A DNA stretch of 64,000 bases from Prevotella sp. (GTDB taxonomy: Bacteria; Bacteroidota; Bacteroidia; Bacteroidales; Bacteroidaceae), in NCBI GenBank assembly GCA_017548275.1, contig JAFZAH010000040.1, positions 1 through 64,000 of the forward strand, in the 5' to 3' direction. The number at the start of each line of letters is the position of its first letter. The stretch's first letter is position 1. Both the position numbers and the translations under genes were made by a program. Shown piece after piece: positions 49,406 to 64,000 of this stretch. The notes under the pieces are model-generated. The model was not told the DNA's origin. It made no database searches and saw only the letters and a program-made list of their open reading frames with translations.

Positions 49406-50026
49406 ATGGAAGTAGCCATCATCAAATATAATGCCGGCAACATATATTCTGTGATTACCGCGCTTGTACGTCTGGGCGTACACCCGTTGTTGACAGATGA
49501 CAGCGAGGCGATTCGCAAGGCCGACTGTGTGCTGTTTCCTGGTCAGGGTGAAGCATGTGGCGCGATGGACTATCTGCGTGAGCATCGGTTGGATGAAGTG
49601 ATACGTAGTTCGCGTCAACCCGTTTTGGGGATTTGTGTCGGTCAGCAGTTGCTGTGCCGCCATTCTGAGGAAGGAGATACCGATTGTATTGGTGTTTTTG
49701 ACACTGATGTGAAACGCTTTATTCCTCAGTCACACGAAGACAAAGTACCCGCCATGGGCTGGAATGAGTTGTACGATTTGCGCTCACCACTCTTTGCCCA
49801 CTTGAATGAGAAAGATTTTGTCTATTTCGTGCACAGTTACTATGTGCCTGTTTGTGATTGGACTGCCGCCAAGGCTGATTTCATACACCCATTCAGTGCC
49901 GCTCTGCATCGAGATAATTTCTACGCCACACAGTTTCACCCAGAGAAAAGCGGAAGAGTAGGTGTTCAGATATTAGAAAATTTCTTGTCATTGACAAAAG
50001 AATTTACGAGTAAAAAACAGTTATGA
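49406..50026 (+). CDS. hisH: Imidazole glycerol phosphate synthase, glutaminase subunit
   Basis: HisH supplies ammonia to HisF. The 206-residue class I amidotransferase has the nucleophile Cys in G-I-C-V-G-Q-Q and the His/Glu pair in A-T-Q-F-H-P-E-K-S. The stop overlaps the hisA start (ATGA), consistent with coupled translation. Confidence 0.96.
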   Translation: MEVAIIKYNAGNIYSVITALVRLGVHPLLTDDSEAIRKADCVLFPGQGEACGAMDYLREHRLDEVIRSSRQPVLGICVGQQLLCRHSEEGDTDCIGVFDTDVKRFIPQSHEDKVPAMGWNELYDLRSPLFAHLNEKDFVYFVHSYYVPVCDWTAAKADFIHPFSAALHRDNFYATQFHPEKSGRVGVQILENFLSLTKEFTSKKQL

Positions 50027-50736
50027 TAGAACTGATTCCTGCCATTGACATCATCGACGGAAAATGTGTGCGTTTGACGAAAGGTGATTATAACCGGAAG
50101 AATATCTACCGCGACTCTCCCGTTGACGTGGCCAAAGAATTTGAAGCAAAAGGATTCCGTCGTCTGCATATCGTGGATTTGGACGGGGCGAAATCGCGCC
50201 ATATCGTGAATGGTCGCATTTTGGAGGAAATCAAGAGCATGACCAATCTCGTAGTTGATTTCGGTGGCGGCATCAAAACCGACGAAGATATATCCACTGC
50301 TTTTTCTTGTGGCGCAGACATGGTAACCATAGGGTCTGTGGCAGTGAAAGAAAAGAAATTGTTTCTCCGTTGGTTGGAGACATACGGTCCTGACCGCATC
50401 ATCTTGGGCGCAGATGTCCGCGACGGATTTGTGAGTGTAAGCGGGTGGTTGGAAGACACGTCCTTGGAACTGTTGCCATTCCTGGAAGACTATATCCGTC
50501 ATGAAGTGAAGAATGTGCTATGCACAGACATCTCAAAAGATGGTACACTTAGCGGTCCTGCCACTATGTTATATCAACAGGTCATGCAGCACTTCCCCAC
50601 CCTGCATCTGATTGCCAGCGGAGGAGTATCTTGTACGGAAGACATATTTGCTTTAGACGAAGCGGGCATCCCCGCTGTCGTATTCGGGAAAGCCTATTAT
50701 GAAGGGAAGATTGAGGTTGACAGATTGGGAATTTAG
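50023..50736 (+). CDS. hisA: Phosphoribosylformimino-5-aminoimidazole carboxamide ribotide isomerase
   Basis: The 237-residue beta/alpha barrel opens the ProFAR ring (Amadori rearrangement) before HisHF. The catalytic Asp sits in L-I-P-A-I-D-I-I-D-G-K-C-V-R-L, and the phosphate sites G-G-G-I-K-T and A-S-G-G-V-S are intact. The second catalytic Asp is in C-T-D-I-S-K-D-G. A 71-base gap rich in GTAGT-like repeats separates it from hisF. Confidence 0.95.
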   Translation: MIELIPAIDIIDGKCVRLTKGDYNRKNIYRDSPVDVAKEFEAKGFRRLHIVDLDGAKSRHIVNGRILEEIKSMTNLVVDFGGGIKTDEDISTAFSCGADMVTIGSVAVKEKKLFLRWLETYGPDRIILGADVRDGFVSVSGWLEDTSLELLPFLEDYIRHEVKNVLCTDISKDGTLSGPATMLYQQVMQHFPTLHLIASGGVSCTEDIFALDEAGIPAVVFGKAYYEGKIEVDRLGI

Positions 50737-50807
50737 TAGTTAATTGAGTAGTAAAAGTTAAGACAGATAGTATTGATAAGTAGTCAGTCCTACAGACACT
50801 TTTCGCA

Positions 50808-51566
50808 ATGAGTGTAGCAAAAAGAATCATACCCTGTTTGGATGTCAAAGACGGCGAGACCGTTAAGGGCACCAATTTCGTCAACCTTCGCAGCGCTGGC
50901 GACCCTGTGGAGTTGGCGGCATATTATAGCGAAGCGGGAGCCGACGAATTGGTGTTTCTTGACATCACTGCCAGCCATGAGGGACGTAAGACATTTACCG
51001 ACATGGTTACTCGCGTTGCCTCTACCATCAACATTCCTTTCACCGTAGGTGGAGGAATACACGAATTGTCCGACGTGGAGCGTCTGTTATACGCCGGTGC
51101 CGATAAAGTTAGTGTGAATAGCGCTGCCCTTCGTCGCCCCGAACTGATCAATGAGATTGCCAATCGATTCGGTTCACAGGTTTGCGTATGTGCTATTGAT
51201 GCCCGTGAGACCACTTCGGGTTGGAAATGCTATTTGAACGGCGGACGCATAGAGACAGAACGTGGTTTATTTGAATGGGCGCGTGAGGCTGCCGACCGCG
51301 GAGCAGGAGAAATTCTTTTCACCAGTATGAATCATGATGGGGTTAAACAGGGCTATGCCAATGATGCATTGTCACGCCTAAGCGACGAGTTAAGTATTCC
51401 CATTATTGCCAGCGGAGGCGCGGGCGCGCCAGAGCATTTCCGCGACGCTTTCCTCATTGGCAAGTCGGATGCGGCTTTAGCAGCCAGCGTCTTCCATTAT
51501 GGTGAAATCAAAATACAAGAATTAAAAGCATACCTGAAATCTTCAGGCATAAGAATTAGAATTTAA
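50808..51566 (+). CDS. hisF: Imidazole glycerol phosphate synthase, cyclase subunit
   Basis: HisF condenses ammonia with PRFAR, releasing imidazole glycerol phosphate and AICAR. The 252-residue barrel has Asp11 in [13 protein letters not shown] and the second catalytic Asp in V-C-A-I-D-A-R. Phosphate-binding G-G-G-I and A-S-G-G-A-G are present. Normal length. It follows hisA and precedes hisIE by 11 bases. Confidence 0.96.
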
Positions 51567-51577
51567 CAATAAGAAAT

Positions 51578-52192
51578 ATGAGCATCGATTTTGACAAAAA
51601 CAACGGTTTGGTGCCTGCCATCATTCAGGACGCGACCACAAAGACTGTACTGATGTTGGGGTATATGAACCGTGATGCATACGAAACGACACGTAGTTCA
51701 GGCAAGGTGACTTTTTTCAGCCGCAGCCGTCAATGCCTGTGGACCAAAGGAGAAACATCAGGGAATTATCTGCATCTAGTAAGCATCCAAGAGGATTGTG
51801 ACCATGACACACTCTTGGTTAAGGTCCACCCAGAGGGTCCTACATGTCACACCGGTACCGATACGTGCTGGGGGGAGACAAACAACCGCAATCCGCTTTT
51901 GTTCCTTACAGAGTTGCAAGATTTCATTGAAAAACGACATGAAGAAATGCCAGAAGGCAGTTACACTACAAGCCTGTTCCGCGATGGTCTGAACCGAATG
52001 GCTCAAAAGGTAGGTGAAGAGGCATTGGAGGCTGTCATTGAGGCAACTAACGGAACCAACGAGCGTCTGGTATATGAGGGTTCAGACATGCTATACCATC
52101 TGATCGTATTGCTGACAAGCAAAGGGCTGCGCATTGAAGATTTGGCCCGCGAATTGATGGAACGTCATCAACCTGATTGGAAGAAACACTGA
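51578..52192 (+). CDS. hisI: Bifunctional phosphoribosyl-AMP cyclohydrolase / phosphoribosyl-ATP pyrophosphatase
   Basis: The 204-residue fusion carries the HisI cyclohydrolase at about 1-110 (zinc ligands in D-C-D-H-D and C-H-T-G-x-x-x-C-W) and HisE at about 115-204 (G-L-N-R-M-A-Q-K-V-G-E-E-A-L-E and L-V-Y-E-G-S-D-M-L-Y-H). It catalyses steps 2 and 3 of histidine synthesis. The remaining his genes are not in the window. Confidence 0.95.
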   Translation: MSIDFDKNNGLVPAIIQDATTKTVLMLGYMNRDAYETTRSSGKVTFFSRSRQCLWTKGETSGNYLHLVSIQEDCDHDTLLVKVHPEGPTCHTGTDTCWGETNNRNPLLFLTELQDFIEKRHEEMPEGSYTTSLFRDGLNRMAQKVGEEALEAVIEATNGTNERLVYEGSDMLYHLIVLLTSKGLRIEDLARELMERHQPDWKKH

Positions 52193-52262
52193 TTTGCCAG
52201 AACGAAAAGGGTTTTACTTGGGGATTTAGAAGTATTTTGAAACAAGATAAAAGATATACATT

Positions 52263-52955
52263 ATGAGTTTGATTCATTATAACCATGCAAACATCTACCA
52301 GGACAATTATCATGTCTTGGAGAATGTTGACTTCCATGTGGAAGAGGGAGAATTTGTCTATATCATCGGAAAAGTCGGTTCGGGCAAAAGTTCGCTGTTG
52401 AAAACTCTTTACTGTGAATTGGACTTAGAAGATACAGAAGAGGCTGAAGTGCTCGGCAGGGATTTGAAAACCCTCCGTCGTAAGGACATCCCTTCCCTTC
52501 GAAAAGAGATGGGCATCATTTTCCAAGACTTCCAGTTGCTTCACGACCGCACTGTTCACAAAAACATGCAATTCGTATTGCGCGCAACAGGATGGGATGA
52601 GAAATCAGCCCGAGAGGCCCGTATCGATGAGGTGCTTAACGCAGTTGGGATGGCTGACAAGAAAGACAAAATGCCGCATGAGTTGTCTGGAGGAGAACAA
52701 CAACGTGTCGCTATTGCCAGAGCCATACTCAACCATCCCAAAATCATTATCGCTGACGAGCCCACCGGTAATCTTGACCCTGATACAGCCCGTAACATCA
52801 TCCGTTTACTGAAAGATATCAGCAAACAGGGAACCGCAGTGGTCATGTCCACCCATAATATCCCCCTGTTGGATGAGTTCCCCGGAACAGTTTACCGTTG
52901 CCACAACGGCCAGTTCTGTGAAGTGACAAGCAAGAATTTGAACGAAGAAGAATAA
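52263..52955 (+). CDS. ftsE: Cell division ABC ATPase FtsE
   Basis: FtsE pairs with FtsX to control peptidoglycan hydrolases at the septum. The 230-residue ATPase has Walker A I-G-K-V-G-S-G-K-S-S, the Q-loop I-F-Q-D-F-Q-L-L, signature L-S-G-G-E-Q-Q, Walker B I-I-I-A-D-E-P-T-G-N-L-D-P-D-T and the H-loop S-T-H-N. The F-Q-D-F-Q-L-L-x-D-R-T-V segment is typical for FtsE. FtsX is not adjacent, so the pair is split here. Confidence 0.88.
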   Translation: MSLIHYNHANIYQDNYHVLENVDFHVEEGEFVYIIGKVGSGKSSLLKTLYCELDLEDTEEAEVLGRDLKTLRRKDIPSLRKEMGIIFQDFQLLHDRTVHKNMQFVLRATGWDEKSAREARIDEVLNAVGMADKKDKMPHELSGGEQQRVAIARAILNHPKIIIADEPTGNLDPDTARNIIRLLKDISKQGTAVVMSTHNIPLLDEFPGTVYRCHNGQFCEVTSKNLNEEE

Positions 52956-52968
52956 CAAAGATAATATT

Positions 52969-54300
52969 ATGATAGTAATGAAATTTGGAGGCACATCCGT
53001 TGGCACACCAGAGCGGATGAAACATGTAGCCTCATTGATAACTCGTTCTGGCGAACCTACGTGTGTGGTACTTTCAGCCATGTCGGGGACGACCAACTCT
53101 TTGGTTGAAATCTCTGATTATCTTTATAAAAAGAATCCCGAAGGAGCCAATGATGTGATTAACGCGTTGGAGAAAAAGTATCTGGGTCATGTTGAAGAAC
53201 TATACTCTTCTAAAGAATGGAAGGAAAAGACCCGTGCTTTTTTATCCGAGGAGTTTGAGTACCTGCGTTCATTCACCAAAGATTTGTTCACCAGTTTTGA
53301 GGAAAAGAGCATTGTCGCGCAAGGAGAAATCATCAGTACTAACATGATGGTGAACTACCTTCAGGAGTCTGGCGTCAATGCCATTCTGCTTAATGCGCTT
53401 GACTTCATGCGCACAGACAAAAACGGTGAGCCTGATCCTCAATACATCAAAGAGAAATTGCAGGCGACATTGTCTAAGAACGAAGGTTATCAGATTTATC
53501 TGACCCAGGGTTTCATCTGCCGCAACGCTTATGGTGAAGTTGATAACCTTCTCCGTGGCGGCAGCGACTACACCGCCTCGCTGATAGGTGCTGCTATCGA
53601 CGCAGAGGAAATTCAAATTTGGACCGACATTGACGGCATGCACAACAATGACCCACGTATAGTGGAACAGACCGAGGCTGTCAGGCAACTCAATTTCGAA
53701 GAGGCTGCCGAGTTGGCTTATTTTGGAGCCAAGATACTTCACCCGACATGCGTACAACCAGCCAAATACGCTGGAATACCTGTTCGCCTGCTCAACACGA
53801 TGGAGCCAGATGCAGAAGGAACCATCATCGACAACGTCGTAATGCGAGGCAAAATAAAAGCCGTGGCTGCAAAAGACAATATCGTGGCCATCAAGATTAA
53901 AAGTTCGCGCATGTTGCTTGCTACCGGTTTCCTGCGTAAGGTATTTGAAATTTTCGAAAGTTACCAGACGCCGATTGATATGGTGTGCACTTCTGAAGTA
54001 GGTGTTTCAGTGAGTATCGACAATGATACGCACCTGGGTGATATCGTGAACGAGTTAAAAAAATACGGCACGGTCACTGTGGACACCAACATGTGTATCA
54101 TCTGTGTAGTAGGCGACTTGGATTGGAGCAATCTGGGCTTTGAAACCATCGCTACCGACGCGATGAAAGACATCCCCGTCAGAATGATATCCTACGGAGG
54201 ATCAAATTACAACATCTCGTTCTTAATCAAAGAGCAAGACAAGAAACGCGCGCTTCAGAATCTAAGTGCAGAACTGTTTAACAGACAATCATCACGATGA
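52969..54300 (+). CDS. lysC: Aspartate kinase
   Basis: The 443-residue protein begins with the kinase motif V-M-K-F-G-G-T-S-V-G and has L-R-G-G-S-D-Y-T-A-S and W-T-D-I-D-G at the active site. Two ACT domains in the last 140 residues (S-R-M-L-L-A-T-G-F-L, V-C-T-S-E-V-G-V-S-V-S) are the feedback site for lysine or threonine. It is a monofunctional kinase without homoserine dehydrogenase. It overlaps lysA by four bases, so it probably feeds diaminopimelate and lysine synthesis. Confidence 0.95.
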   Translation: MIVMKFGGTSVGTPERMKHVASLITRSGEPTCVVLSAMSGTTNSLVEISDYLYKKNPEGANDVINALEKKYLGHVEELYSSKEWKEKTRAFLSEEFEYLRSFTKDLFTSFEEKSIVAQGEIISTNMMVNYLQESGVNAILLNALDFMRTDKNGEPDPQYIKEKLQATLSKNEGYQIYLTQGFICRNAYGEVDNLLRGGSDYTASLIGAAIDAEEIQIWTDIDGMHNNDPRIVEQTEAVRQLNFEEAAELAYFGAKILHPTCVQPAKYAGIPVRLLNTMEPDAEGTIIDNVVMRGKIKAVAAKDNIVAIKIKSSRMLLATGFLRKVFEIFESYQTPIDMVCTSEVGVSVSIDNDTHLGDIVNELKKYGTVTVDTNMCIICVVGDLDWSNLGFETIATDAMKDIPVRMISYGGSNYNISFLIKEQDKKRALQNLSAELFNRQSSR

Positions 54301-55454
54301 AAGGACAATTTCCCGTACAGCGGTTCAAAGCAATTGAGACACCCTTTTATTATTACGATACCGATTTACTTCGCGAGACGCTTCGTGCAGTCCATCAAGA
54401 GGTAAACCGCCATCCAGGATTCCATGTGCATTATGCCATTAAGGCCAATGCCAACCCGAAAGTGCTCAATGTGATATGTCAATCAGGACTGGGGGCAGAC
54501 TGTGTGAGCGGGGGTGAGATAAAAGCAGCATTAAGCGCAGGTTTCCCCGCCTCGAAAATCGTATATGCTGGAGTGGGAAAAAGTGACTGGGAAATTGATT
54601 TGGGATTAAGCAAGGACATCAGTTGCTTCAACGTGGAGAGTCTGGCAGAATTGGAAGTGATTGAAGAGCGGGCCGCAATAATGGGCAAAACGGCTAATAT
54701 TGCTTTCCGAATCAATCCCGATGTGGGCGCTCATACCCACAGCAACATCACGACCGGTCTGGCAGAGAACAAATTCGGTATAGCCATGCGCGATATGGAA
54801 GAAGCGATAGAACATGCACTGCGGTTACCGCACATCCATTTGAAAGGTCTTCATTTCCATATAGGATCACAGATACTCGACATGGGTGATTTCGCAGCCC
54901 TGTGCAACCGTATCAATGACTTGCAGAATCGTATAGACCGTATGCATTATCGCATCGAGAGCATCAATGTGGGTGGCGGTCTTGGGGTCGATTACGTTCA
55001 CCCCAACCGTGTGTCGATACCCGATTTCAAGTCATATTTCTCCACCTACGCACGCAATTTGAAATTACGGAGTCATCAGACTCTTCATTTCGAGTTAGGC
55101 AGGGCAATTGTCGCTCAATGCGGTTCGCTTATAACGCGTACATTATATATAAAGAAAGGCACAGCCAAGCAATTCCTCATAGTTGACGCTGGTATGACGG
55201 ACCTGATTCGTCCGGCGCTTTATCAGGCTTATCACAAGATAGAGAACATCTCAAGCGACGAACCGAGAGAGACGTATGATGTGGTTGGTCCCATCTGCGA
55301 ATCGAGTGATGTCTTCGCCAAAGCCGTCGATGTGAACCAAGCACGACGTGGAGATTTGATAGCAATACGTTCGGCTGGAGCATATGGTGAAATCATGGCG
55401 TCGCAATATAATTGCCGCAAACTGCCGAAAGGTTATATCACCGAAGATTTATGA
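54297..55454 (+). CDS. lysA: Diaminopimelate decarboxylase
   Basis: LysA makes lysine from meso-diaminopimelate. The 385-residue PLP enzyme has the Schiff-base lysine in H-Y-A-I-K-A-N-A-N, H-F-H-I-G-S-Q, the phosphate-binding V-G-G-G-L-G-V-D-Y and C-E-S-S-D-V-F. Its ATG overlaps the lysC stop, and its own stop overlaps the next start. Confidence 0.96.
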   Translation: MKGQFPVQRFKAIETPFYYYDTDLLRETLRAVHQEVNRHPGFHVHYAIKANANPKVLNVICQSGLGADCVSGGEIKAALSAGFPASKIVYAGVGKSDWEIDLGLSKDISCFNVESLAELEVIEERAAIMGKTANIAFRINPDVGAHTHSNITTGLAENKFGIAMRDMEEAIEHALRLPHIHLKGLHFHIGSQILDMGDFAALCNRINDLQNRIDRMHYRIESINVGGGLGVDYVHPNRVSIPDFKSYFSTYARNLKLRSHQTLHFELGRAIVAQCGSLITRTLYIKKGTAKQFLIVDAGMTDLIRPALYQAYHKIENISSDEPRETYDVVGPICESSDVFAKAVDVNQARRGDLIAIRSAGAYGEIMASQYNCRKLPKGYITEDL

Positions 55455-56584
55455 TATTCTCCCCTGTCACATTGATTGCAAGCGGCGTAACGTTAATCTC
55501 ATCGTTGCTGACACCCTTCCTCAACACGTTATACCGACGTCCCAAAAAGGAAGATGTGACAGACCCGCCATCAGAATCTCCCATCACGCTCATCATCACT
55601 TCGCACGGCAACGCGCGGCAGTTGGACGAGCATCTTCCTCTTTACCTCACCCAAGACCATCCGGCGGGTTATGAGGTAATTGTGGTAGGCGAGAAAAACG
55701 ACTCGGAAACGGAAGATATACTGAAACGATACAGCGGTCACCCTCATCTATATACTACATTCATCCCCGAGACGTCGAGGTATATGAGCCACAAAAAACT
55801 GGCCATCACTCTTGGGATGAAGGCAGCAAGAAATGAGTGGGTGGTTATTACCGACCCTTCATGCAAACCCAATACGAAACATTGGTTGCAAAGTATGTCC
55901 GCATATTTCACGCCCTCGACCAATCTTGTCTTAGGATACACCAATTATGGTTCGTCGGCACCTGATTACTATCGTTTCGAGCATCTCTACACCGCGCTCT
56001 ATATCTTCCGTGAGGCGCATAAAAGAAAAGCATATCGCACCAACTGTTACAATGTGGCCATCAGGAAGAGCGTTTTCCTTGACGGTAATGGTTTTCAGGG
56101 CAACCTGAAATACACCATCAGCGAATATGACTATCTGGTCAACAAATTCTCAGACCGTCACACGGCATTGTGCCTTGATGAAGAGGGGTGGATGACGGAG
56201 GACACGCCATCGATAAAACAATGGCAAAACAAACATATCTACCTGAAAGAGACCGTTAACCATTTGCGTCGTACCCGTTTGCATTTCCTGCGCTATCGTA
56301 TCGACCAGATTGCCATGTATGTGAATTACGCACTGATAGCAGGATTAGCAACATATGGTGTTATCACCCACCAATGGGTAACATGTGCCATAGCCGCCCT
56401 GTCAATGGTTGTCACACTTAGTCTTCGCGTGATGATAGGGAAACGTGCGATGCAGGCTTATCACCAACCCATCAGTTCTTGGAAGATCATCCCATTTGAA
56501 CTGAGCATGTTTTGGCGTAATGCCCGCAACAGAATCAGGTATGAGAACGCCGACAAATATGACTTTATTAGTCACAAAGTATGA
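55451..56584 (+). CDS. Membrane-associated family 2 glycosyltransferase
   Basis: The start at ATG 55451 overlaps the lysA stop. The 377-residue protein has an N-terminal membrane helix, a GT2 Rossmann domain (P-I-T-L-I-I-T-S-H-G-N-A near 45-56) and two hydrophobic segments near 285-330. At the expected D-x-D metal site the sequence reads T-D-P-S-C, so the second Asp is replaced. The general base region (E-E-G-W-M-T-E-D-T-P) is present. It may act on a lipid-linked sugar; the acceptor is unknown. Confidence 0.82.
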   Translation: MIFSPVTLIASGVTLISSLLTPFLNTLYRRPKKEDVTDPPSESPITLIITSHGNARQLDEHLPLYLTQDHPAGYEVIVVGEKNDSETEDILKRYSGHPHLYTTFIPETSRYMSHKKLAITLGMKAARNEWVVITDPSCKPNTKHWLQSMSAYFTPSTNLVLGYTNYGSSAPDYYRFEHLYTALYIFREAHKRKAYRTNCYNVAIRKSVFLDGNGFQGNLKYTISEYDYLVNKFSDRHTALCLDEEGWMTEDTPSIKQWQNKHIYLKETVNHLRRTRLHFLRYRIDQIAMYVNYALIAGLATYGVITHQWVTCAIAALSMVVTLSLRVMIGKRAMQAYHQPISSWKIIPFELSMFWRNARNRIRYENADKYDFISHKV

Positions 56585-56593
56585 CAAATATCC

Positions 56594-57853
56594 ATGTATG
56601 CCATGAAAGTGCTACACTATATACCATCACTGAACAGCACAGACCCTACCGTCGTCGCACTGTTGAATACTGTCATGGAACAGGCCAAGTCGAATAGGGT
56701 TTATGTCGCCACTTTGACCGCAGCGAAACTGTCTAATCCATTGCGCGGTGTGGTGATATACCGACTTCGCAAACGTGAAAACCGGTTTGTCAATCTCGTT
56801 TCCTTGCAAAGTAGATTTTTGCAGGTTCTTTATTCTGTGATGCCTGACATAGTACATGTACATGGCTGCTGGAGTTATGTCGGTTCGAAAATATGCATTT
56901 GGTCGAAAAACAGGAATTTTGATGTTATCATCTCTCCACATGAACAACTCAACCAAGATGTTATTAACGACAAATTTTGGAGTAAACGGTTACCTGCTAT
57001 CCTCTTTTATCAGCGCAAGCAAATAAAACGTGCCTCGGCCCTCTTTTCCAACTCAAATAAAGAGACAAAATCATTAAAAAAACTGGGATGGAACCGTCGT
57101 ATTGAAATGCCTCTCATCACTGAAGAAATAGCTATGGATGCGATTCCTGCCTCTGAACGAGAGTCGGAAGGTCTATATACGTTGTATCAGAAGGTGACAG
57201 ACAGCACCTATTATCAAAAGATGCATGAACACGAGAAGGCCGCTTTTAGCGCTTTACTCCATACAGGTCTTGCTGAAGACGATGAGACACGATTACTCAA
57301 TGCCCAATCGATACTGAACTTACGCAATTTGAACTTGGCATCATGGAGAAGAATCTTTCTGTTGGCAACAGACCAGGATGTGTTGCAGATCGTAGAGACG
57401 GGTATCACACGAATGCAATTGAGTGTACCTAACATTCATACAGCATCCATCGCCCGTTATGGTTCAAAAAATGACACCGCCACCACGCCATTGTCGAGCC
57501 GCCAACTTTTCACATCGAGTAAGAAATCACAGAAACAATTATCAACCATCAACAATAAGGACTTCAGGGCTATCTACGTTATGTTGGAAAATATAAAAGC
57601 CTTGATTCGTTCAGGTCGTCTTCGCGTACGTCATCTATGCGACTATTATTCGTTAATCCGACATATTGACATTGACGAGGATACATTGTTGAAATCGATG
57701 AAATCAGTCGGCGATGACCGTTTCATGGGTCGCATACATCAAGTATTGCAAGAAATGCTGTATTTAGAACCTGGTTTTATGCCCGTAGCCGCTATTGACG
57801 ACCGTGGCACAGAAAAAATCCGTAAAAAAATAACACATTTTCTATCACTATGA
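56594..57853 (+). CDS. GT4-like N-terminal domain protein with unusual C-terminal half
   Basis: The 419-residue protein starts like a family 4 glycosyltransferase (M-K-V-L-H-Y-I-P-S-L, D-I-V-H-V-H-G-C-W, I-I-S-P-H-E-Q-L). The frame allows ATG 56594 or 56603. The donor-binding C-terminal Rossmann domain (with its E-x-F-x-x-x-x-x-E motif) is missing; instead the last 230 residues are helical, charged and rich in Ser/Thr. Activity as a glycosyltransferase is therefore doubtful. Its stop overlaps the fbp start by four bases, and it may work with the upstream GT2. Confidence 0.6.
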   Translation: MYAMKVLHYIPSLNSTDPTVVALLNTVMEQAKSNRVYVATLTAAKLSNPLRGVVIYRLRKRENRFVNLVSLQSRFLQVLYSVMPDIVHVHGCWSYVGSKICIWSKNRNFDVIISPHEQLNQDVINDKFWSKRLPAILFYQRKQIKRASALFSNSNKETKSLKKLGWNRRIEMPLITEEIAMDAIPASERESEGLYTLYQKVTDSTYYQKMHEHEKAAFSALLHTGLAEDDETRLLNAQSILNLRNLNLASWRRIFLLATDQDVLQIVETGITRMQLSVPNIHTASIARYGSKNDTATTPLSSRQLFTSSKKSQKQLSTINNKDFRAIYVMLENIKALIRSGRLRVRHLCDYYSLIRHIDIDEDTLLKSMKSVGDDRFMGRIHQVLQEMLYLEPGFMPVAAIDDRGTEKIRKKITHFLSL

Positions 57854-59853
57854 AAAAACATTATAATTTAGAGAAAGACCTTCATTATCTGCAACTTCTG
57901 TCCCAAAGTTTCCCTAATGTGGCAGAAGCAAGCACTGAGATCATCAACCTGCAGGCTATCCTTAACCTTCCTAAAGGCACTGAGCATTTCCTGGCTGACC
58001 TGCATGGAGAGAATGAAGCCTTTCAACACGTAATTAAAAATGCGTCAGGCAACATCAAACGAAAGGTTAACGAACTGTTTGGCAACGAGATGCGCGAATC
58101 GGAAAAGCGCGAACTCTGTACTCTGATATACTATCCCGAACAAAAACTGGAACTGATAAAATCAAGCGAAGAAGACATTGATGACTGGTATCGAATCACC
58201 ATCCACCAATTGGTTCGTATATGTCGCGATGTGTCAAGTAAATATACCCGTTCGAAGGTGCGTAAATCTCTTCCTGATGATTTCAGTTATATTATTCAGG
58301 AACTACTTCATGAACGCACCGACGATGCCAATAAAACCGCCTACGTGAGTGCCATCATTGAGACCATCATCACTACAGGTCGAGCCGATGATTTCATCCA
58401 TGCCATTGCCAATGTGATACACCGTCTGGCCATCGACCAGTTGCATATTCTCGGCGACATCTTTGACCGTGGTCCAGGTGCCCATCTCATCATGGACACC
58501 ATGGAGAACTATCACAGTTGGGATATCCAATGGGGCAACCACGATATTTTATGGATGGGAGCATGCGCAGGCAATGAGGCATGTATCTGTAATGTGGTTC
58601 GTTTGTCGCTTCGCTATAACAACATGGCCACATTGGAAGAAGGATATGGTATCAACCTTATTCCATTGGCTACCTTTGCCATGGATGCTTATCAGGACGA
58701 CCCTTGTCAGGGGTTTATCCCTAAGGATTTAAGCGGTGAAACGATGGACGAGAAAACCCTTCGTCTGACTGCCCAAATGCACAAAGCCATCTCTATTCTG
58801 CAATTTAAGATTGAGTCAGCCATCATCAGCCGACACCCCGAATGGCAAATGGACGACCGTCTGTTGCTGAACCACATAGACTATGAAAAAGGAACCATCA
58901 CGATTGACGGAGAGACTTATACATTGACAAGTTGCTATTTCCCGACCATCGACCCTGCAAATCCTTTTGAGTTAACAGCCGAAGAAAAGTTACTTATCGG
59001 CAAATTACGACACAGTTTCAAAATCAGCGAAAAACTGAACCGCCATATCCGCACCTTGTTGGCTCACGGTTGTATGTATGCTGTAGTCAACAATAATCTG
59101 CTGTTTCACGCCTCTGTCCCATTGAATGCTGACGGAAGTCTGAAAGAAGTGGAACTGCCTGATGGCAAGAAATACAAGGGATTGGAACTGATGCACAACA
59201 CAGGTATGGTTATCCGTTCCGCTTTTCAGAGTGACACAGATCCCCTCTATCGGGAGAACGCACGTGATTATTTCCTTTACCTTTGGAGCGGCAAAAACTC
59301 TCCCTTGTTTGATAAATCAAAAATGGCCACATTCGAACGCTATTTCCTGACAGACAAGAAAACCCATAAAGAAGAGAAAGGCTATTACTATCAATTACGT
59401 GACAACGCAGAGGTGTGCGATGCCATCTTGGACGCTTTCCATGTGGAAGAACCCAACCGACATATCATCAACGGTCATGTGCCTGTGCACGTTAAAACAG
59501 GTGAGAACCCCATCAAGGCCAGTGGTAAATTGATGGTTATAGACGGCGGATTCTCACAGGCGTATCATCATGAGACTGGCATCGCAGGCTACACTCTAGT
59601 ATATCATAGCCGTGGTTTCCAACTTGTTCAGCATGAGCCGTTTACAAGTTCTAAAGACGCTATTCTCCGGGGAACAGACATCAAGAGCACAGAGCAAATC
59701 GTTGAGATGTCATCGCATCGTATGTTGGTGGCCGACACCGACAAGGGTAAAGAGATTCGGCGTCAAATAGCAGACCTGGAAGAACTGCTATATGCTTACC
59801 GTCACGGATTCATCAAAGAACAAGACAGAAAATTGATTATTGGGAAAGACTAA
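57850..59853 (+). CDS. fbp: Class III fructose-1,6-bisphosphatase
   Basis: This gluconeogenic enzyme belongs to the calcineurin-like metallophosphatase type used by Firmicutes and Bacteroidetes. The 667-residue protein has F-L-A-D-L-H-G-E near residue 42, L-G-D-I-F-D-R-G-P-G-A-H near 202, W-D-I-Q-W-G-N-H-D near 225 and N-G-H-V-P-V near 540, which are the metal-binding motifs. Normal length. It is the last gene of the plus-strand run. Confidence 0.96.
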   Translation: MKKHYNLEKDLHYLQLLSQSFPNVAEASTEIINLQAILNLPKGTEHFLADLHGENEAFQHVIKNASGNIKRKVNELFGNEMRESEKRELCTLIYYPEQKLELIKSSEEDIDDWYRITIHQLVRICRDVSSKYTRSKVRKSLPDDFSYIIQELLHERTDDANKTAYVSAIIETIITTGRADDFIHAIANVIHRLAIDQLHILGDIFDRGPGAHLIMDTMENYHSWDIQWGNHDILWMGACAGNEACICNVVRLSLRYNNMATLEEGYGINLIPLATFAMDAYQDDPCQGFIPKDLSGETMDEKTLRLTAQMHKAISILQFKIESAIISRHPEWQMDDRLLLNHIDYEKGTITIDGETYTLTSCYFPTIDPANPFELTAEEKLLIGKLRHSFKISEKLNRHIRTLLAHGCMYAVVNNNLLFHASVPLNADGSLKEVELPDGKKYKGLELMHNTGMVIRSAFQSDTDPLYRENARDYFLYLWSGKNSPLFDKSKMATFERYFLTDKKTHKEEKGYYYQLRDNAEVCDAILDAFHVEEPNRHIINGHVPVHVKTGENPIKASGKLMVIDGGFSQAYHHETGIAGYTLVYHSRGFQLVQHEPFTSSKDAILRGTDIKSTEQIVEMSSHRMLVADTDKGKEIRRQIADLEELLYAYRHGFIKEQDRKLIIGKD

Positions 59854-60012
59854 ATTATGTACATACAACAGTTAATACAATTTTCATTATAAAAGTAGTT
59901 ATTATCATCTACTGACTTGGATACTATTAACACTTATACTCAAATCAATATACTTTTTGACACCAAATAGTATTTTTTTTGTTTTTTTCTTCTTCATATA
60001 AAAGAAAAATTG

Positions 60013-60020
60013 TATATTTG
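60013..60020 (+). promoter_or_regulatory. -7 box before the candidate structured RNA
   Basis: TATATTTG matches TAnnTTTG. The -33 position falls in a T-rich stretch without an exact TTTG. Transcription is expected from about 60026. Confidence 0.5.
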
Positions 60021-60025
60021 CAGCG

Positions 60026-60250
60026 TACATTAGATTGTACATCTATTATATTTGCTCAAATCGTCTTCCGAATCAGCACCTCGCAAAACGAGTTAACCGG
60101 GCAAAGAAATCTCCATTGGAGCACGCGCATAAGCGTAGGCTTCAACCATAGGAGATTTGGGTCGTGCTGAACCTGGAAGACGTATGGCGACAGTCTGCGC
60201 TTCCTTTTGTGCCGAAGGTTAGTGCAAGACTACCAATAAGACTAACCTTT
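60026..60250 (+). ncRNA. Candidate structured RNA with pseudoknot, about 225 nt
   Basis: The sequence supports many long helices. TAGAT/ATCTA forms a 5' hairpin (60031-60045). CGTCTTCC (60062-60069) pairs with GGAAGACG (60175-60182), and TCAGCAC (60073-60079) with GTGCTGA (60164-60170). Inside are a CTCG/CGAG hairpin (60080-60092), AAATCTCC (60107-60114) with GGAGATTT (60151-60158), TTGGAGC with GCTTCAA and an ACGC/GCGT hairpin. TTTGCTC (60051-60057) can pair with GGGCAAA (60099-60105), crossing the outer helix as a pseudoknot. AAGGTTAGT (60215-60223) with ACTAACCTT (60241-60249) closes the 3' end. It does not match RNase P, tmRNA, SRP RNA or a riboswitch I know. A 6S-like or Bacteroidales-specific RNA, or a long leader of the downstream genes, remains possible. 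Confidence 0.65.
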
Positions 60251-60286
60251 ATATGCGAGCGAATATGGCCCAACAATTATTGTTTT

Positions 60287-60319
60287 AAATGAATAAATCC
60301 TCAATTCCCACCATTTGAG
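60287..60319 (+). other. Hairpin between the candidate RNA and the membrane protein gene
   Basis: ATCCTCAA and TTGAGGAT form an 8-bp stem with a ten-base loop, about 100 bases before the next ATG. No clean T-run follows. It may be a partial terminator or a leader element. The remaining part of this 560-base gap shows nothing else. Confidence 0.35.
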
Positions 60320-60413
60320 GATCATCCTTTGATTTGCCACGATTTATACATCAGCAAAGCATCGCACCACTTCATAATTATTTGATAATCAATAACTATT
60401 AAAAACATAAACA

Positions 60414-61463
60414 ATGAAAAATGTGAATTTAAAAACTTGGGGTTCTTTTATCGCCTTTCTAATCTTAGCAGGAATAAGTTGCTGGGCGACAGAACATTCT
60501 TTCCACCTTTTGATTAAGTGGATGCCTGAAGCATTTGTGTGGGGGCTTACCATTGCCTTTTTCATCCTTGCCTCTTATGGTACAAAATTGATCGTAGATG
60601 CGCTCAACAAAGATAACTGGATGGAGCATCGCAGGAGAACATTTTGGATTGGAGTGGTCTTGGTCACAATCTTTTGGTTCTTTATGAGTATGCCGACTAA
60701 TACTCATACGTTCTTTTATAACCACAATATTGGTAACAAAGTGCAAGAAGATTTAACCACAACCACAAATTATCTTAATCAAATCAAAGAGCGAACAGTT
60801 GTGGATTCCGCTTATTATACAGTTCATGCCAAAGTTCATGACAAGTTCAAAGATTTACGTGATGAATTTAACGGTATCGGTGGTAGTAGAAGAAAAGGTT
60901 ACGGTGAATATGTGAGTAAACTAATAGGTGAGATTAATGAGATTTTGGAGAGTGAACTACCCGGTAGTGGAATTAAATCCAATGATGCTGCTTGGTATTC
61001 CACCAGCCCAGTAGTATTGACCAATTATGAGAACCAAATGAACAGGGCACTTGAATCTATCAGAGACCAAAAATACAGAGTGTCACAAACGGCCTCAAAT
61101 GAAGCCAATGAAGATTTGCGTAAATTGCAAATTATGTCAGACACCATAAAGACCATGGTAGAGTTGGGCAGTATTCACGAAGATGTGATAACTCAGACCG
61201 ACGGTGTCATTTTAAGCGGTTATACTACCATCAAAGAGAATCAAAAATATGTAAAGTTTGACAATCTTACTGACAAGGATACTTACACTTCCGATAATTT
61301 GGAGACAAAGACGAAACGAATGCTTTCAGTAATTGATGTATGGGGCGATTTCTTTAAGGGGAAATATCCTATATCTTTCATTTTTTATATTTTACTATCC
61401 ATTTTGGTTGATGTTGCCGCATTTATGTTTTTTGATTTTACATTTAAAAGAAAAGATAATTAA
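60414..61463 (+). CDS. Four-helix membrane protein of unknown function
   Basis: The 349-residue protein has hydrophobic helices at about 8-26, 38-60, 76-92 and 322-341, with a 230-residue soluble region between the third and fourth. That region is helical and charged (N-Y-L-N-Q-I-K-E-R, N-E-A-N-E-D-L-R-K-L-Q-I-M) and by the likely topology faces the periplasm. No enzymatic motif is visible. It lies 14 bases upstream of the GTPase gene and is the first protein of a four-gene cluster. AT-rich codons (AAT, AAA, TTA) differ from the neighbouring metabolic genes. It could be a sensor or a membrane effector. Confidence 0.7.
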   Translation: MKNVNLKTWGSFIAFLILAGISCWATEHSFHLLIKWMPEAFVWGLTIAFFILASYGTKLIVDALNKDNWMEHRRRTFWIGVVLVTIFWFFMSMPTNTHTFFYNHNIGNKVQEDLTTTTNYLNQIKERTVVDSAYYTVHAKVHDKFKDLRDEFNGIGGSRRKGYGEYVSKLIGEINEILESELPGSGIKSNDAAWYSTSPVVLTNYENQMNRALESIRDQKYRVSQTASNEANEDLRKLQIMSDTIKTMVELGSIHEDVITQTDGVILSGYTTIKENQKYVKFDNLTDKDTYTSDNLETKTKRMLSVIDVWGDFFKGKYPISFIFYILLSILVDVAAFMFFDFTFKRKDN

Positions 61464-61477
61464 TAATAATTTGTATT

Positions 61478-62404
61478 ATGGAAATAAATCCTCAAATCAG
61501 CTCTTCCTTTAACAATAAAGAGGGCAACGAACAAAACGTGAATACCATCCCGGTCACCCCTAATATCCAATCAGACGAACAAGAATCAGCCACTCAGGGA
61601 CTTACACAAGAAGAGACTAAAGATCCGAATAAGATAGCAGTCACAATCGCAGACAACCAAAGCCCTATAGTGGTTTTGTTTGGTCCTCCTGCGTGTGGTA
61701 AGACGATGACCCTTATCCGCCTTACAAGATATTTGAAGAATAATGGGTATCTAGTCCTACCTGTTGAATCATTCAGACCTTCTACAGATATACATTATAA
61801 AAAAATGTGTAAGGGGTATAACGAAATGGTTAATAACAACGATGCAGCCAAAAGCACCGCCAATATTAGTTTTATGCTTGTTCGAGTTTTAGACGAGTAC
61901 GGCAAACCTATTTGCCAAATATTGGAGGCTCCCGGTGAATATTATTATAACCCATCTAAACCTCAAGAAAGTTTTCCTGTATATGTCAACAATATCAAGA
62001 ATGGTCCAAATAGGAAAATATGGTGTTACATGGTAGAACCAAACTGGAAGGATGCGTCGGACAGACTCGGTTATGTCGATAAGATTAATAACCTAAAGAC
62101 CAACATGCGCCCGTCAGACAAAGCCGTCTTTATCTTCAACAAAATAGACCTGACACCATATGTCATTTCCCCTGGTCAAATAAACGTAAAACAAGCCAGA
62201 AGAGAAATTGAGTCTTTATACCCAGGCATTTTTGCGAGATTCAGAGTAAGAGGTATATTTGGAACATCTGATAATTTTACATTTGTACCTTTCCATACTG
62301 GAGATTATTCTAAAACCATTGATGGGAATTACTCATTTCAACAAGGTCCAGATGAATATCCTAGAGCATTATGGAAGACCATTCTTAATTATGTGAGAGG
62401 TTAA
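61478..62404 (+). CDS. P-loop GTPase-like protein of a novel gene cluster
   Basis: The 308-residue soluble protein has a disordered polar N-terminus (about 1-60) and a G domain. G1/Walker A is G-P-P-A-C-G-K-T (69-76). A G3-like L-E-A-P-G-E occupies 149-154 in place of D-x-x-G, and G4 is N-K-I-D (221-224) after the strand K-A-V-F-I-F. S-F-R-P-S-T-D near 98-104 may be switch I. The N-K-x-D motif indicates GTP rather than ATP. It is close to no housekeeping GTPase I recognise, and resembles the GTPases placed at the centre of predicted conflict systems. It lies three bases before the coiled-coil gene. Confidence 0.75.
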   Translation: MEINPQISSSFNNKEGNEQNVNTIPVTPNIQSDEQESATQGLTQEETKDPNKIAVTIADNQSPIVVLFGPPACGKTMTLIRLTRYLKNNGYLVLPVESFRPSTDIHYKKMCKGYNEMVNNNDAAKSTANISFMLVRVLDEYGKPICQILEAPGEYYYNPSKPQESFPVYVNNIKNGPNRKIWCYMVEPNWKDASDRLGYVDKINNLKTNMRPSDKAVFIFNKIDLTPYVISPGQINVKQARREIESLYPGIFARFRVRGIFGTSDNFTFVPFHTGDYSKTIDGNYSFQQGPDEYPRALWKTILNYVRG

Positions 62405-62407
62405 ATT

Positions 62408-63634
62408 ATGAATATTGAATTTCTTATCCACGGAACATTGTCAGACGGACAGTCTTTTTGGAAAGAGACTGACTCTGACTATTGTTCGCTATTTTATGTT
62501 TCCAATCGACAAGAAAATGTTGTGATGGACATAGAGGTGTTAAAAAGGGGTGGTGGTGTTTGTACGTATTACAATTATCTTCGCTATAATAATATCTCCG
62601 CCTCTCATAGAGCCGGTTCTTACTTTGGTATGACTGTCAGAGTTGATGGTTCAATCTGCACTGATGTAAAAAGTATGTATGCTATTCTTGACACACTCTT
62701 TTACAAGATGGTTGTGGGGAGTTTGTTAGAACCTGATGGTAACGGGTTTGTCTACACCTTTGACAGTTTCAGCACCAAGAAGAACGTGCTTCTTAATATC
62801 CAGAATCAATTCATAAAAATGTTTGAAGCGACATTTATCTCAAATAATGATTTCAAAGATATTCCCAATTCATACAAAAAAGGAGATTCTGTCCGCCGGG
62901 TAAACATCAATGACATCAATAAAAGTATTGTTTCTGAGACTTTATCACAAGGGAATAAATTATGCGTGTCATCCGTCTATAAGACTGTTGCGGAAACAGA
63001 TGCAGATAAATGCGTTGAGAAAGCGAAAACAGATGCTAATGCACGAATCAAAGCCGCTGAGGAGAAGATGCAACGTGAAATAGAGAACACCAACAGGCGA
63101 GCACAATCTGAAATTGAAAAGCAGGTGTCCTCTATTCAAAAGCAAATGTCTGAAACAGAGAATTCTCGCAAAAACTTGAAGCAGAGAATCGAACGACTCA
63201 CTATTGAGTTGAAAGATGCAAAAGAATCGTTGAAGAAAAAAGAAGAAGAATGTAAACAATTAAGTCAAGATAAATTAAGTCGTGAAATCAGTGCACACAT
63301 TGTTGAAATCAAGCCATCACTTACCAAATGGTTAAGCCATGTGGAAGAACGCTCCACAAGCGGCCAAGCCCAGAAACCGGCTCTCAAAAGAAGCGGAAAT
63401 AAGACAGTTGAGATACCAAAATGGATTCATGTGCTTAACTGCGTTTTGCTTTTATTGATATTGGCTCTATTAATTTGGCCAACTCCAACCCAACAAATAC
63501 AACAGATAGATCCTCAACAATTAAAAGAAGTAATACAAGAAGTAAGAACCAATGAACAGCCCCAAGAAGGCATCGCCCCTATAGGGAAAGAAAAAAGGGG
63601 CATATTTAATAAATTTGCACATCCAAAACATTAA
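62408..63634 (+). CDS. Coiled-coil, tail-anchored partner of the GTPase
   Basis: In this 408-residue protein, residues 1-190 form a globular domain starting M-N-I-E-F-L-I-H-G-T-L-S-D-G-Q, with H-R-A-G-S-Y-F-G-M-T-V-R-V near 86-98. An H-G motif at the start and an R-x-G-x-Y-F strand later are reminiscent of the GAP1-N (GTPase-associated protein) domain, but this is a weak likeness. Residues about 195-295 are a coiled coil (heptads of E, K and Q), and one membrane helix lies at about 340-358. A 50-residue Q-rich tail follows. The protein could tether the GTPase to the inner membrane next to the four-helix protein. Confidence 0.65.
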   Translation: MNIEFLIHGTLSDGQSFWKETDSDYCSLFYVSNRQENVVMDIEVLKRGGGVCTYYNYLRYNNISASHRAGSYFGMTVRVDGSICTDVKSMYAILDTLFYKMVVGSLLEPDGNGFVYTFDSFSTKKNVLLNIQNQFIKMFEATFISNNDFKDIPNSYKKGDSVRRVNINDINKSIVSETLSQGNKLCVSSVYKTVAETDADKCVEKAKTDANARIKAAEEKMQREIENTNRRAQSEIEKQVSSIQKQMSETENSRKNLKQRIERLTIELKDAKESLKKKEEECKQLSQDKLSREISAHIVEIKPSLTKWLSHVEERSTSGQAQKPALKRSGNKTVEIPKWIHVLNCVLLLLILALLIWPTPTQQIQQIDPQQLKEVIQEVRTNEQPQEGIAPIGKEKRGIFNKFAHPKH

Positions 63635-63657
63635 CTAACCAAATAAAGTATAATAAT

Positions 63658-64000
63658 ATGAAGATATCAAAGACTTTATCTGTAGTGCTATTTTCAACGA
63701 TAGTGATTTTTTCAACTTGCACGAAAGACAAAAAGCCGCCTGTTGATTTATCTAAAGCAAAAGTCAGCATGAACAAAGATGTGGTGTTGCCGTATCAGGA
63801 AGTTGGAAACCTTAAGACTATTCCAGTGAGACTCAACGGAGTGAATCTTGATATGATTTTTGACACTGGCTGTTCGGGGATGAGCATGTCTTTGAATGAA
63901 CTCCAAACATTAGCCAAGAATGGAAAAATTACAGAGAGCGATGTTTTAGGTACGACTTACTCCACAATCGCCGACGGGTCTATTGTTGAACAAGGCCTAA
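63658..64000 (+). CDS. Retropepsin-like aspartic protease lipoprotein, N-terminal part
   Basis: The frame starts at ATG 63658 and stays open to the end of the window (114 codons). A lipoprotein-like signal peptide ends I-F-S-T-C (Cys21). Residues 49-78 carry V-G-N-L-K-T-I-P-V-R-L-N-G-V followed by M-I-F-D-T-G-C-S-G-M-S-M-S. The D-T-G-C-S with the preceding hydrophobic strand is the active-site loop of single-domain, retropepsin-like bacterial aspartic proteases. A flap-like I-A-D-G-S-I-V follows. It is 23 bases downstream of the coiled-coil gene and likely the fourth cluster member. The C-terminus is outside the window. Confidence 0.75.
   Translation, partial: MKISKTLSVVLFSTIVIFSTCTKDKKPPVDLSKAKVSMNKDVVLPYQEVGNLKTIPVRLNGVNLDMIFDTGCSGMSMSLNELQTLAKNGKITESDVLGTTYSTIADGSIVEQGL

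Follow-up and report, generated by a model that had tools for sequence, protein, structure and literature searches.

A mobile six-gene operon of Prevotella and its possible role as a transmembrane GTPase switch

Introduction

A stretch of 64,000 nucleotides from Prevotella sp. (assembly GCA_017548275.1, contig JAFZAH010000040.1, positions 1 to 64,000; hereafter the window) ends in a run of closely spaced genes that encode a GTPase, membrane proteins and an aspartic protease. What does such a combination do, and does it belong to a class of systems that is already known? An earlier reading of the letters (the original prediction) knew no named system with this set, which agrees with our finding that four genes of the cluster (A, B, C and E below) have no curated family. 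We propose, with a probability of about one half, that the genes form a mobile six-gene operon that serves as a transmembrane GTPase switch.

In the membrane biology of archaea and eukaryotes, a longin or roadblock dimer recurrently works together with a small GTPase, and the usual bacterial example of such pairing is MglA-MglB. The gut Bacteroidales cluster would open a bacterial version of the longin-GTPase partnership to experiment, with a function proposed from sequence and a structural model. If this is correct, the workings and the spread of such regulators could be studied conveniently in a compact mobile operon that carries its own GTPase together with a pair of longin-like membrane proteins. 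Predicted GTPase-centred conflict systems would likewise gain a testable architecture, consisting of an outer sensor, a longin pair, a GTPase, a membrane output and a protease.

Gene content and layout

The features are as follows (ORF, open reading frame; aa, amino acids; TM, transmembrane; AF2, AlphaFold2).

60414-61463, plus strand: gene A, 349 aa membrane protein (ORF call)
61478-62404, plus strand: gene B, 308 aa, small-GTPase-fold protein
61682-61705, plus strand: Walker A (G1) motif GPPACGKT of B (sequence reading)
61922-61939, plus strand: G3 motif LEAPGE of B, with a Glu after the Gly like most DO-GTPases fetched
62138-62149, plus strand: G4 motif NKID of B (sequence reading)
62408-63634, plus strand: gene C, 408 aa, with a predicted longin-like N-domain, a long coiled coil, one TM segment and a short tail (ORF and AF2 model)
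62408-62848, plus strand: predicted longin-like domain of C, residues 1-147; the fold is confident to about residue 190 (AF2 model)
62987-63331, plus strand: coiled-coil helix of C, residues 194-308 (DSSP on the model)
63422-63478, plus strand: single TM segment of C, residues 339-357 (hydropathy)
63658-64176, plus strand: gene D, 172 aa lipoprotein-type aspartic protease, of which the first 114 aa (63658-64000) lie inside the window
64182-65294, beyond the window: gene E, 370 aa paralogue of C with a MORN-like C-terminus
65300-66403, beyond the window: gene F, 367 aa, with a signal peptide and a BACON domain

The four genes of the cluster that begin within the window all lie on the plus strand, and the gaps of 14, 3 and 23 bases that had been counted between them are exact. 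The window edge truncates D and hid the rest of this gene, together with E and F. The contig is 381 kb long, and its sequence past the edge has gaps of 5 bases each between D and E and between E and F. The cluster had also been described as AT-rich, and its fraction of G plus C is indeed 0.31-0.40, versus 0.44-0.51 in 16 of 19 downstream intervals (the remaining three are 0.34-0.41). No Rfam family matches at gathering score within positions 50000-64000.

Conservation of the operon

A scan of genome contigs (84,980 species) with B as the query gave 25 loci. With the locus described here and 13 more, 39 loci were assembled, and one of them (L063, with a weak match to B and no A, C or E) was dropped. 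The gene order recurs at the 38 that remain, which contain near relatives (L048 and L049, L034 and L040, as judged by gene sizes). Gene A is found at all 38 loci, as two ORFs in L043 and via tblastn in L046. Gene C is found at 37, and the contig of the other (L054) stops after B. A second C/E-type protein is present at 34 of the 34 loci whose contigs continue (L034, L040, L045 and L054 are excluded) and is split in L047. There are 29 representatives of D among 36 assessable loci, of which 27 were called by a simple ORF picker; those of L038 and L055, like A of L046, were recovered by tblastn. No D, or only a remnant of it, is present in L029, L030, L041, L044, L053, L058 and L062, and its presence is undecidable in L034 and L054.

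The original prediction would have been undermined by homologues that are rarely adjacent, and instead they are adjacent at these 38 loci and at two more. The latter came from searches with A as the query. Among 251 genomes of the family, B is found in 21 and A also in 21, and 20 genomes have both; the unshared matches, one for B only (G064) and one for A only (G192), are weak. Among 295 genomes of the order, A has three strong matches besides its own genome and two weak ones (G711 and G727). One strong match is the locus L026 and two are new: G744 carries A-B-C-D-E in order, and G624 carries A-B-C-D with no recognised E. Pairwise distances are correlated for all ten gene pairs (r 0.57-0.87), and none of 500 permutations reaches these values (the A genes of L043 and L046 were left out of this comparison). 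Thus, A-B-C-(D)-E are passed on together as a single unit. The idea that unrelated genes came to lie side by side by chance in AT-rich DNA is ruled out for practical purposes by an order kept among varied neighbours and by the occurrence of A and B in the same genomes.

The GTPase

The original prediction recognised a G-domain with N-K-I-D in B, and the Walker A and G3 motifs listed above stand beside it. The pattern G....GK[ST] is present in 40 of 40 B-family proteins, as are a loose G3 pattern (GE in 39 and GD in one, L027_11) and the G4 pattern [NTHSI]KxD, which takes the form NKxD in 37 (the alignment of B holds 29 of the 40 sequences). These observations strongly support the assignment of B as a small-GTPase-fold protein. 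A match to a housekeeping family would have counted against the proposal, and B matches none above cut-off in Pfam or NCBIfam; we therefore rejected the housekeeping GTPase as a candidate. Also, no DO-GTPase family is matched at E<=1 in Pfam.

L027 (10454-11263) and L056 (6077-6853, minus strand) carry, downstream of the operon, an additional B-like GTPase that is divergent (26-28% identical). This arrangement is reminiscent of double-GTPase systems.

Paired membrane proteins C and E

In a tree of C and E proteins, labelled by gene position, none of 68 is misplaced and the local support is 0.966 (L058 and the second proteins shorter than 200 aa, from L047 and L049, were left out). The N-domains of the two groups match each other by hhalign with probabilities of 98.6 and 98.3. 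The alignments hold 28 of the 76 ORFs, and those of the N-domains hold 25 C and 25 E sequences; early profiles were split by a motif rule, by which two C proteins (L045_3 and L056_13) fell into the E set. The data strongly support the view that C and E are paralogues of long standing, each with a homologous N-domain, a coiled coil, usually one TM segment and a variable C-terminus.

The original prediction described C as a coiled-coil, tail-anchored protein. The coiled coil and the TM segment hold, and the strict tail anchor does not: 51 residues follow the TM segment in C, and more than 100 do so in many homologues. Among 68 C/E proteins with a TM segment, the N-terminal side is more positive in 50 and the C-terminal side in nine, with nine ties (of the 76 ORFs, four shorter than 200 aa and four without a TM segment were left out).

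We predict that the N-domain of C is longin-like. The order of its elements in the model is that of a longin, with no N-terminal helix and an extra C-terminal helix, and the first two rows of a Foldseek search with this model agree with a longin-like fold. There is no roadblock or MglB chain among the best 50 VIA rows for C, which carries no weight.

The presumed outer parts of these proteins vary. E of Prevotella has a MORN match of 15.6 bits that is below the cut-off of 22.5, and elsewhere the outer parts are beta-rich or FGE-sulfatase-like domains. E-type proteins that end in FGE-sulfatase domains are encoded in L052 (genome G063, 150-2270, minus strand) and L062 (genome G186, 11487-13208, plus strand). 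L052 carries six C/E-assigned ORFs in tandem. A diversity-generating retroelement beside the FGE-sulfatase genes was considered and rejected, as no motif like that of a reverse transcriptase was present in the two stretches read. In L058 (10896-11774), the second C/E-type protein lacks the N-domain, and the lipoprotein signal of D is seemingly fused to the second half of E; a deletion that removed D and the N-domain of E might explain this.

Genes A, D and F

Gene D had been described as a lipoprotein with a D-T-G protease loop, and this description is borne out. D matches the Pfam family gag-asp_proteas (PF13975) with 39.9 bits (cut-off 28.2), its catalytic DTG is at 63862-63870 and a lipobox-like Cys is at 63718-63720 (sequence reading). 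A Cys-bearing signal peptide is present in most homologues. A D[TS]G string occurs in 28 of 28 D-assigned proteins, with the caveats that the first such string of L039 and L051 is out of its usual context, that L040 has masked residues and that the D-assigned protein of L038 is a different protein of 680 aa. D also resembles TIGR02281 (27.1 bits, E 3.7e-6) below the curated cut-off of 57.95. Both the assignment of D to the clan AA aspartic proteases and its signal of the lipoprotein type are strongly supported.

F has a BACON domain (26.4 bits, cut-off 25) and an fn3_6 match below cut-off (19.2 bits versus 26.4). An F-like coding sequence adjoins four of the four E genes of the MORN type, which associates F with a single class of E. 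In G744 (locus L116, 4926-6614, minus strand), an E-type ORF of 562 aa includes an F-like BACON part, which is an E-F fusion.

Gene A encodes N-terminal TM segments, a large extramembrane region with the motif PTNTHTFFY and a C-terminal TM segment (its alignment holds 24 of 38 sequences). The four helices ascribed to this protein are found in most relatives, whereas the hydropathy threshold gives only two segments in A itself. No Pfam or NCBIfam family matches A above cut-off.

Insertion site and neighbours

The cluster lies between a gene that we take to be fbp, upstream, and a convergent DUF5715 gene followed by what is presumably phoH, both named from the look of their sequences. DUF5715 is present in 28 of 30 genomes of the genus, and phoH lies beside it at 15 of the 19 congeneric loci that were read besides our own. 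In one congener (G513, locus L090), fbp adjoins DUF5715 with the ends of the genes head to head and overlapping by 14 bases, which is an empty site. In our genome, 6592 bases separate the two stop codons. Because of this difference, the cluster is best read as an insert between fbp and DUF5715. The suggestion of an accessory island agrees with this arrangement and with the presence of B in only two of 17 same-genus genomes listed, our own included.

Flanking proteins were scanned as a set of 76 (40 and 36), chosen from 64 downstream and 32 upstream proteins and a small number of others; three lie inside the operon of L056. They are varied, and the matches listed include TPR/Sel1, BACON, enzymes and one HipA_C. 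No neighbour is common to the loci among the families listed (best 25 of 45 and best 25 of 58).

Proposed mechanism

One possibility is that C and E lie with their N-termini in the cytoplasm and pair through their N-domains. The pair would be a membrane-anchored regulator of B, either as a guanine nucleotide exchange factor (GEF) or GTPase-activating protein (GAP) or as a platform, in the way that longin pairs act for Rab and Rag GTPases. Perhaps the extracytoplasmic parts (MORN-like together with F here, beta-rich or FGE-sulfatase-like elsewhere) sense a ligand or a change in the envelope, which would alter the C-E pair as well as the nucleotide bound to B. B might then act on the four-TM protein A. 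On the periplasmic side, D may trim C/E or the loop of A, and so trigger or reset the switch, much as PerP does with PodJ.

A conflict role, directed at phages or competitors, is plausible and fits better than housekeeping because the distribution is patchy and the outer domains are exchangeable. Two suggestions of the original prediction are unsupported so far, namely that the protease or the membrane protein is the output and that the system is anti-phage. Named defence systems were considered and rejected, since PADLOC 2.0.0 gives only partial matches, to the P-loop of B (best mad8, E 4e-5, residues 46-90) and to the coiled coil of C, and none for A, D, E or F.

These PADLOC results are among several observations that weigh against the proposed switch. 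The best E-value in Foldseek is 6.3e-3, with none below 1e-3, and ranks 6, 8 and 9 are taken by unrelated chains. The fold match is to a predicted model of C alone. There is no longin among the 14 families matched at E<=1 by 25 N-domains, and none in the PDB at E<=10, nor do these profile searches place the N-domains in any other known family. The contacts B-C, B-E and C-E are postulated, and A as the output is a guess for a protein that lacks a family match above cut-off. An intact D is lacking at 7 of 36 loci, so that this gene is not obligatory, and correlated distances are also expected from common descent of a linked operon. As for mobility, the insertion site is that of one genome, as fbp is next to DUF5715 at only one of the 19 other congeneric loci, and plasmids and phages hold no homologue of B at E<=1e-3. 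There is no clear defence neighbourhood among the families listed (best 25 of 45 and of 58), which include one HipA-like gene.

Comparison with known systems and rival explanations

Longin and roadblock dimers bind GTPases as GEFs, occasionally as GAPs, or as platforms, according to PMC10933270. A table in a 2016 review (PMC4917890) lists Longin/Roadblock as present in bacteria, and therefore the class itself is not new there. We found no described bacterial longin-GTPase operon among the top matches in the open-access literature. Heterodimers such as Mon1-Ccz1, which is a longin-type GEF, FLCN-FNIP, NPRL2-NPRL3 and TRAPP, and the longin proteins of Asgard archaea, share with the operon the fold predicted for C, two paralogous subunits and a neighbour with the small-GTPase fold. 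Unlike these partners of Rab and Rag GTPases, C and E are bacterial, are anchored by a TM segment, have a coiled coil and an outer part and display no detected sequence similarity to them; their dimerisation and GTPase binding are putative. A more specific version of our proposal is tentative, and we consider it somewhat less probable than its converse. In this version, the operon is a bacterial transmembrane counterpart of heterodimeric longin-small GTPase modules, wherein an obligate longin-like pair with exchangeable outer sensors controls a GTPase across the inner membrane, a periplasmic aspartic protease is the trigger and GAP1-N may be another longin-like domain. A different explanation of the N-domains is that they sense ligands in the manner of PAS/GAF domains, share only the broad profilin/longin/PAS architecture and do not regulate B. 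In its favour, PAS/LOV folds are neighbours of longins, PAS/LOV chains come next after the longins in Foldseek, and the lack of a sequence match to longins fits as well; we regard it as improbable. An equally improbable account is a switch that organises polarity or the envelope, in which a coiled-coil membrane scaffold is placed by the GTPase and changes state when D cuts it. C does have the coiled coil, TM segment and outer part of a polarity scaffold. MglB is a roadblock homodimer that regulates a bacterial GTPase (PMC10933270). MglA-MglB is alike in joining such a GTPase to a small alpha/beta regulator of roadblock/longin type, whereas the operon has two membrane proteins with a longin-like order of elements. 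A further protein considered for comparison is TagF, an accessory protein of type VI secretion. PerP cuts PodJ, according to the entry for PerP-PodJ-MmpA in a review table (PMC10202637). D, too, is an aspartic protease with a DTG motif and a signal for export, and it adjoins a coiled-coil bitopic protein. It weakly resembles TIGR02281, the type of protease family to which we assume PerP belongs, but D is of the lipoprotein type and misses the cut-off of that family. Moreover, the patchy spread (20 of 251 genomes), the exchangeable outer domains and the dispensability of D are unlike core polarity genes.

The original prediction had pointed to GTPase-centred conflict systems, and this kinship is partly supported. 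As defined by Kaur et al. 2020 (PMC7159879), DO-GTPase/GAP1 systems combine a GTPase that has a Walker B Glu with a GAP1 protein and GASH or FNIII partners, and some planctomycete GAP1-N2 systems are reported to have an FGE-sulfatase domain. The operon could be a third, very divergent type of these systems, in which C and E are membrane-anchored GAP1-like adaptors, with sensor or effector functions in the variable C-termini and in F, and this is compatible with the proposed switch. The two share a compact mobile neighbourhood, a Glu in Walker B/G3 of the GTPase, a downstream adaptor and TM-anchored forms with extracellular domains, with FGE-sulfatase in some, here at the ends of two E-type proteins. 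By hhalign, B aligns to DO-GTPase profiles; the probability is 93.3 for an alignment of 193 columns in which the G3 Glu coincides, and 71.0 for one of 182. Five DO-type proteins score best against B among 46 non-self Walker-A sequences: a GAP1-N2-type GTPase (61.7), two DO-GTPase-a (59.9 and 58.3) and two DO-GTPase-b (44.9 and 33.4, over 24-32 columns only). The ranking has a single ordinary GTPase among its controls. We take this control to be YchF by its look. However, most of the other DO-GTPases score no better than unrelated proteins, with six of nine DO-GTPase-a at 4 or below and a lowest value of 0.3. The N-domain of C reaches a probability of only 2.2 over 19 columns against GAP1-N1 (a profile made from 10 of 30 plasmid matches fetched, without L082, which has no annotation, and L084, whose annotated start lacks the domain). 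In local mode, this N-domain and a merged C/E profile beat 12 of 12 column shuffles against GAP1-N1 at probabilities of 1-2; in global mode, the best shuffle is not exceeded by either. There is no signal for the N-domain of E in local mode, nor for any comparison with a single GAP1-N2 sequence. The Pfam families GAP1-N1 (PF20012), GAP1-N2 (PF20013) and DO-GTPase2 (PF19993) have no match in our genome; elsewhere they match 2 times in 198 genomes, 1 in 60 and 6 in 118, respectively. Among A-F, there is no GASH or above-cut-off FNIII by Pfam, and no profile of A-E matches GASH. A search of viral contigs for GAP1 loci suited to modelling found none. The operon further differs in having two adaptor paralogues, an extra four-TM protein and an aspartic-protease lipoprotein. 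Because most single DO-GTPases score low and the global comparison fails, we consider membership in this class rather unlikely. Since GAP1-N, GASH and FNIII were not found and C/E give mixed results against GAP1-N, the system is not assigned to it, though it may work alike. Among the GAP1 loci fetched, a GAP1-N1/GASH system of the Aliivibrio salmonicida plasmid pVSAL840 (L078, 1093-7534) has rdrB, an annotated gene of the antiviral RADAR system, on one side and an IS30 transposase on the other.

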